From Caulobacter zeae (GTDB taxonomy: Bacteria > Pseudomonadota > Alphaproteobacteria > Caulobacterales > Caulobacteraceae): a stretch of 64,000 nucleotides of DNA. The stretch lies in assembly GCF_002858925.1 (NCBI RefSeq), contig NZ_PJRS01000033.1, forward strand, positions 1 to 64,000, given 5' to 3'. Of this stretch, positions 18,286-18,806 are shown in pieces (the first letter of the stretch is position 1; each line of letters opens with the position of its first letter). Made by a program: the position numbers and the translations under genes. Under the pieces are notes generated by a model that saw nothing but the letters and a program-made list of their open reading frames with translations, searched no databases and was not told the origin of the DNA.

Positions 18286-18648
18286 ATGTTTCGCAACACC
18301 GCTTTCACCGCCCTGGTCCTGGCCGGGGCCTTCCTGCCGGCCGCCTCGGCCCTGGCCGCGCCGCCTGGCCAGACGCTCTACGCCGACAACTGCGCCGCCT
18401 GCCACCAGGTGAGCGGCAAGGGCGTCAAGGGCGCCTATCCGACCCTGGCCGGCGCGCCCCTGGTCCAGGGCGACGCCAAGCCCCTGCTGAGCATCGTGCT
18501 GAACGGCAAGAACGAGATGCCCGGCTTCAGGGACGACCTTTCCGACGCCGACCTCGCCGACCTGCTAACCTATGTGCGCACCGCGTGGGGCAACAAGGGC
18601 AAGGCCGTCACCCCAGCCGAGGTCGCCGCCGCGCGTCGGCGTAAATAG
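18286..18648 (+). CDS. Small periplasmic class I cytochrome c
   Basis: 120 residues. A signal peptide (MFRNTAFTALVLAGAF ending ALAAPP) is followed by a monohaem cytochrome domain: haem attachment CAACH at about residue 38, and the Met ligand in EMPGF near residue 81. A basic tail (AAARRRK) ends the protein. It presumably shuttles electrons in the periplasm. No oxidase or dehydrogenase partner is adjacent. Confidence 0.9.
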   Translation: MFRNTAFTALVLAGAFLPAASALAAPPGQTLYADNCAACHQVSGKGVKGAYPTLAGAPLVQGDAKPLLSIVLNGKNEMPGFRDDLSDADLADLLTYVRTAWGNKGKAVTPAEVAAARRRK

Positions 18649-18687: not shown

Positions 18688-18724
18688 TGACAACGTTGTC
18701 ACGAGCGACGGAAGCCGCTATACA
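18688..18724 (+). promoter_or_regulatory. Sigma-70 promoter with an overlapping LacI-type palindrome, driving the small RNA
   Basis: TTGTCA (18696-18701) and TATACA (18719-18724) are separated by exactly 17 bases, a strong housekeeping promoter by alphaproteobacterial standards. The -35 is embedded in the perfect 14-bp palindrome TGACAACGTTGTCA (18688-18701), whose central CG is typical of LacI-family operators. Transcription would start near 18731. No LacI-family gene is in the window. Confidence 0.65.
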
Positions 18725-18730
18725 GGTCCT

Positions 18731-18798
18731 GCCCTTCCTGGGCGTTTCCTCCCAATTCACTGGGCCGCCTTCTTCTCCTGGAGGGCGGCTTTTCTTTT
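18731..18798 (+). ncRNA. Candidate trans-acting small RNA with CU-rich (anti-Shine-Dalgarno) loops, mmgR/suhB-like
   Basis: The promoter at 18696-18724 would start a 68-base RNA. It has a 5' hairpin GCCC-TTCCT-GGGC (18731-18743), a single-stranded GTTTCCTCCC segment (18744-18753), and a terminator stem GCCGCC (18764-18769) with GGCGGC (18784-18789), extended by G-U pairs to a TCTCCT loop, followed by TTTTCTTTT. CCTCC and CTCCT in unpaired positions can pair with ribosome-binding sites. From memory the UUUCCUCCC segment resembles the alphaproteobacterial mmgR/suhB (alpha-r8) sRNA family; that assignment is inference. There is no open reading frame in it. Confidence 0.65.
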
Positions 18799-18806
18799 GC
18801 CCGCGA

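Follow-up and report, generated by a model that had tools for sequence, protein, structure and literature searches.

Within the window (the whole 64,000-nucleotide stretch of Caulobacter zeae DNA that was analysed), the only Rfam match was to family RF00519 (suhB/mmgR, alpha-r8), at positions 18724-18804. The match spanned model positions 1-77, the full length of the model, and scored 55.1 bits (cmscan), where the curated Rfam gathering cut-off for RF00519 is 41 bits. A permissive local scan (301 bp, E <= 1) likewise listed RF00519 alone. From the match and the predicted fold, the gene was placed on the plus strand at 18730-18798, giving an RNA of about 69 nt whose start is predicted. The fold had an energy of -29.4 kcal/mol (z = -4.35), and none of 200 shuffled sequences folded as well. 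A product of this size, with a resemblance to mmgR/suhB RNAs, had been anticipated in the preliminary description of the stretch, and the covariance search bore out both points.

The RNA was comprised of three elements. A weak 5' hairpin, GCCC-UUCCU-GGGC (18731-18743), was present in the RF00519 alignment, the fold and the orthologue alignment. It is followed by the single-stranded core UUUCCUCCC (18745-18753), the predicted anti-Shine-Dalgarno seed, located from the RF00519 alignment. At this place the family carries the 10-mer UUUCCUCCCU; the window copy reads UUUCCUCCCA, agreeing at nine of ten bases, with A instead of U at the tenth. Apart from that mismatched base the 10-mer was unpaired, the minimum free energy structure weakly pairing its last three C residues and the centroid structure leaving them free. 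The third element is the Rho-independent terminator that characterizes the suhB/mmgR family: a stem-loop at 18764-18789 (terminator scan, fold and orthologue alignment) followed by the U tract TTTTCTTTT (18790-18798), as the preliminary description had recognized. Its loop, UCUCCU (18774-18779; fold and orthologue alignment), is a possible second anti-Shine-Dalgarno site. Three pyrimidine-rich stretches had been said to carry CCTCC or CTCCT; this holds for the core and the terminator loop, while the 5' loop reads CUUCC.

Upstream, the promoter elements were found exactly where they had been described: a -35 element, TTGTCA (18696-18701), a spacer of exactly 17 bp and TATACA (18719-18724), the latter contained in the -10 element GCTATACA (18717-18724). 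Calling this promoter near-ideal was generous, as the two hexamers match the E. coli consensus at 5/6 and 4/6 positions. A sigma-70 consensus scan missed the sRNA promoter because its -10 ends in A, and the Caulobacter housekeeping promoter describes it better than the E. coli consensus does. Across 36 distinct sequences the -10 motif GCTATA was kept at 90% or more, and the region upstream was otherwise variable apart from this motif and a palindrome. That palindrome, which the preliminary description did not include, is the perfect 14-bp sequence TGACAACGTTGTCA (18688-18701), and its right arm is the -35 box. From its conservation and from an identical site at zwf, it is predicted to be a LacI-family (GluR) operator lying over the -35 box.

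Sites matching TGACAACGTTGTCA with at most two mismatches numbered 29 in the host genome, against two for the reversed control. An exact copy directly precedes zwf of the zwf-pgl-edd-glk operon. One-mismatch sites precede a LacI-family gene (Pfam) that follows this operon, the position of gluR, and a ppdK-like gene; a two-mismatch site lies before a pykA-like gene. GluR (CC2053) is a LacI-type regulator with a predicted regulon, and glucose has been proposed to release it from DNA (PMC4052901). Judged by sequence, the placement of the palindromes reproduces that predicted regulon as far as it is described in the main text of PMC4052901, the window palindrome being the same as the zwf-pgl-edd-glk site and close to the other three. 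The sRNA gene thus has, within its promoter, a palindrome like those of zwf and gluR, and the operator over that promoter is most likely GluR's. A conserved repressor site in this position suggests that the sRNA is switched on by glucose; that GluR responds to glucose is, in turn, a prediction. The listed regulon consists of protein genes only, and the term 'small RNA' is absent from the main text of PMC4052901; an sRNA would be an addition to the predicted regulon. No report of an operator link for this sRNA was found in the main texts of the open-access literature subset, so that priority is not firmly claimable.

In other genomes, one with a single alpha-r8 copy (G019) had no TGACAACGTTGTCA-like sites at one mismatch or fewer, and one with no copy of the window type (G013) had only palindrome variants with a GCTG/CAGC arm. 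Two further perfect copies of TGACAACGTTGTCA were seen in the host genome. One (L157:3288-3301; G000:C9:65787-65800) lies at the start of an ORF that reads as a major-facilitator-type sugar transporter and may be one more member of this regulon. The other (L158:3206-3219; G000:C30:15705-15718) precedes a short stretch with no assignment and a carotenoid-oxygenase-like ORF, which is no obvious sugar gene.

The palindrome of a real sRNA gene might instead be bound by another LacI-family protein, such as a BglR-type paralogue or a different sugar repressor, and the inducer would then not be glucose. Three Caulobacterales BglR paralogues of GluR with related sites have been described (PMC4052901), and similar palindromes were found near two other LacI-family genes (AGACAACGTTGTCT at L155 and TGTCAACGTTGTCA at L159). 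These near-palindromes differ, however, from the window 14-mer, which is exactly the zwf site, and binding by such a protein is considered rather unlikely, though it is the alternative that deserves the most weight.

Conservation of the palindrome was measured on two sets. In the first, loci of relatives were fetched through the neighbouring protein and then searched for the RNA core only, without use of the palindrome; the palindrome core ACAACGTTGTC was at the same place in all 14 of the 14 fahA-linked copies. In the second, a pattern search for palindrome and sRNA together gave matches at near-constant spacing in 43 of 75 Caulobacter genomes (reversed control, 0); every match of such a pattern contains the palindrome by design, and 14/14 is the unbiased figure. 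A similar RNA without the palindrome was found in one fragmentary genome (G016, locus L256). Since the right arm doubles as the -35 box, independent evidence for an operator comes from the left arm, TGACAAC, only. A constrained -35 region in front of a constitutive sRNA gene would explain the right arm, and the sibling RNA SisA has been described as nearly constitutive (PMC12559287). Such a constraint would not explain the left arm, which the promoter does not need and which was conserved while the flanks varied, both in the 36 sequences and in the unbiased 14-copy set; nor does it account for the recurrence of the same 14-mer before sugar genes. A palindrome that is promoter only is accordingly held to be improbable, and an operator for a LacI-family repressor is the preferred reading.

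For the RNA itself, the block GGGCGUUUCCUCC, which includes UUUCCUCC, was invariant over 24 orthologues. In the terminator stem of these orthologues three pairs were changed on both sides and 98.7% of cells were paired, a modest covariation. The CUCCU-type terminator loop was kept in orthologues of the window copy and was absent from those sibling terminators that were inspected; the UCUCCU loop may be a second seed. The hairpin could in principle do no more than end transcription of the cytochrome c gene upstream, whose ORF lies on the same strand and ends at 18648, where a terminator would be useful, with no separate RNA being made. The covariance match is full-length, however, and takes in the 5' hairpin and the core; conserved -35 and -10 elements lie between the cytochrome c gene and the hairpin, the internal core is conserved, and homologous sRNA copies adjoin unrelated genes in the same genome, all of which makes a plain terminator very improbable. 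The terminator scan alone proves nothing, because 1.5 such sites were expected by chance in the 3.5 kb in which one was found; the strong evidence for an sRNA gene is the Rfam match together with the phylogeny. Assignment to the alpha-r15 (AbcR) family, the label given to the four C. crescentus siblings CCNA_R0014, R0133, R0143 and R0157 in PMC6561178, is scarcely credible, as the permissive Rfam scan contained no alpha-r15 match and PMC12559287 classes these four as alpha-r8. By homology the locus is a genuine sRNA gene that adds a member to the known MmgR/Sis (suhB) family; as an RNA it is ordinary, one more Sis/MmgR RNA.

The closest described relatives are these four RNAs of C. crescentus, named SisA-D, which are Hfq-bound and share the anti-Shine-Dalgarno core UUUCCUCCC(U) (PMC12559287); all four were enriched with Hfq (PMC11005374). 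SisA represses a broad set of mRNAs through pairing of its conserved 10-mer upstream of start codons (PMC12559287). This is the masking of ribosome-binding sites that the preliminary description had proposed for the window RNA, for which it would hold by analogy. CrfA, an RNA induced at carbon starvation, pairs with the 10-mer of the siblings and lowers or sponges the Sis RNAs (PMC12559287). The window copy shares with SisA-D the Rfam family, the genus and the layout of weak hairpin, anti-Shine-Dalgarno core and terminator. It differs in a core ending CCCA, whereas theirs ends CCCU, and in its CUCCU-type terminator loop; its orthologue is probably SisB, SisC or SisD. With MmgR of Sinorhizobium meliloti, the alpha-r8 founder, it has the Rfam family and the core in common. 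MmgR is the sole copy in that species and is linked to PHB accumulation, whereas the window copy is an extra one, located beside fahA and carrying a LacI-type operator.

Three alpha-r8 copies scored above the RF00519 cut-off in the host genome: the window copy, L001 and L002. At least one was present in almost every genome of the genus and the family. With the fumarylacetoacetase-like gene as anchor, the host was placed near C. radicis and C. endophyticus within Caulobacter. The window copy lies between the cytochrome c gene and the Rieske/fahA pair and not beside an N-formylglutamate amidohydrolase (FGase) gene, the arrangement of the founding copy, which is not required of extra alpha-r8 copies. 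L002 does adjoin the FGase gene, as sisA does in C. crescentus (PMC12559287). It carries CGACAACGTTGTCC (G000:C33:263053-263066) about 60 bp upstream of its RNA match; the same sequence was found in one other genome (G005, L185) and in no other SisA-type copy inspected.

L001 (G000:C43:79511-79589, minus strand; L167) follows a family-2 glycosidase gene, and its promoter carries TGGTAGCGCTAACT. In 30 of 75 Caulobacter genomes its orthologues have sites of the type TGTTAGCGCTA(A/C/T)CA, the spacing being near-constant. In the host genome the perfect form, TGTTAGCGCTAACA, is found between a LacI-family-like gene and a xylX-like gene (L295). From its translation we take the latter to be xylX, and the operator of the L001 type is presumably XylR-type.

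Weaker RF00519 matches (L004-L007, 29-35 bits) were not counted as copies, as they mostly look like ordinary terminators. One of these, L004 (G000:C16:48754-48839), scored 34.5 bits, below the cut-off, and combines GCGTATCCTCCCT with a strong terminator directly behind an ORF; it may be a sibling that has diverged, or a terminator and nothing more.

For the sis promoters of C. crescentus, PMC12559287 states, in the portion of its text available, that no motif is shared, and that portion mentions neither LacI nor XylR. The absence of a shared motif fits operators that differ copy by copy. From the operators described above we infer that alpha-r8 siblings sharing one targeting core may be wired to different sugar repressors. 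A fuller form of this idea, for which the odds appear evenly balanced, is that the window copy would be under GluR, L001 under an XylR-type operator and SisA broadly expressed, so that any available sugar would feed one mRNA-silencing programme, with CrfA resetting it at starvation. If true, this would help to account for the retention of several near-identical siblings, which PMC12559287 leaves unexplained. At least two copies seem to have promoters that respond to different sugars via LacI-family repressors, which amounts to a testable rule for that retention, and such sugar-by-sibling wiring would link silencing by these sRNAs with the Entner-Doudoroff and xylose regulons. The rule lends itself to a direct check in C. 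crescentus, a laboratory model for which sis deletions and probes have been published.

The reading favoured with good confidence for this locus is an autonomous gene for an Hfq-type, trans-acting alpha-r8 sRNA that represses by Shine-Dalgarno pairing, its promoter being under a LacI-family, most likely GluR, operator. Without glucose, GluR would cover the -35 box. With glucose, the predicted response is that GluR leaves the DNA and the sRNA is transcribed together with the Entner-Doudoroff genes. As the literature on its siblings suggests, the RNA would bind Hfq, expose UUUCCUCCC and pair with the Shine-Dalgarno regions of several mRNAs, repressing their translation as SisA does, and mRNAs with a Shine-Dalgarno sequence of the GGGAGGAAA type would be turned down while it is present. 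Once carbon is exhausted, a CrfA sponge, presumably present in this strain too, would remove the window RNA along with the other Sis RNAs.

A search of the genome for complements of the core (AGGGAGGAAACGC) returned mostly the sRNA copies and other sites, and a CrfA orthologue was not located by this core complement. Sites of the form GGGAGGAAA-N(2-9)-ATG occurred seven times in the host genome and not once in the reversed control. The best duplex among the 75 starts examined (-22.4 kcal/mol) involved the start of a gene for a tryptophan halogenase that lies within the GluR locus. Its ribosome-binding site, GGGGAGGAAACGCC-ATG (L152:13567-13583, G000:C21), is complementary to the sRNA core and was conserved in close relatives only. 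The tryptophan halogenase gene and the other GGGAGGAAA sites are candidate targets, to be taken as leads.
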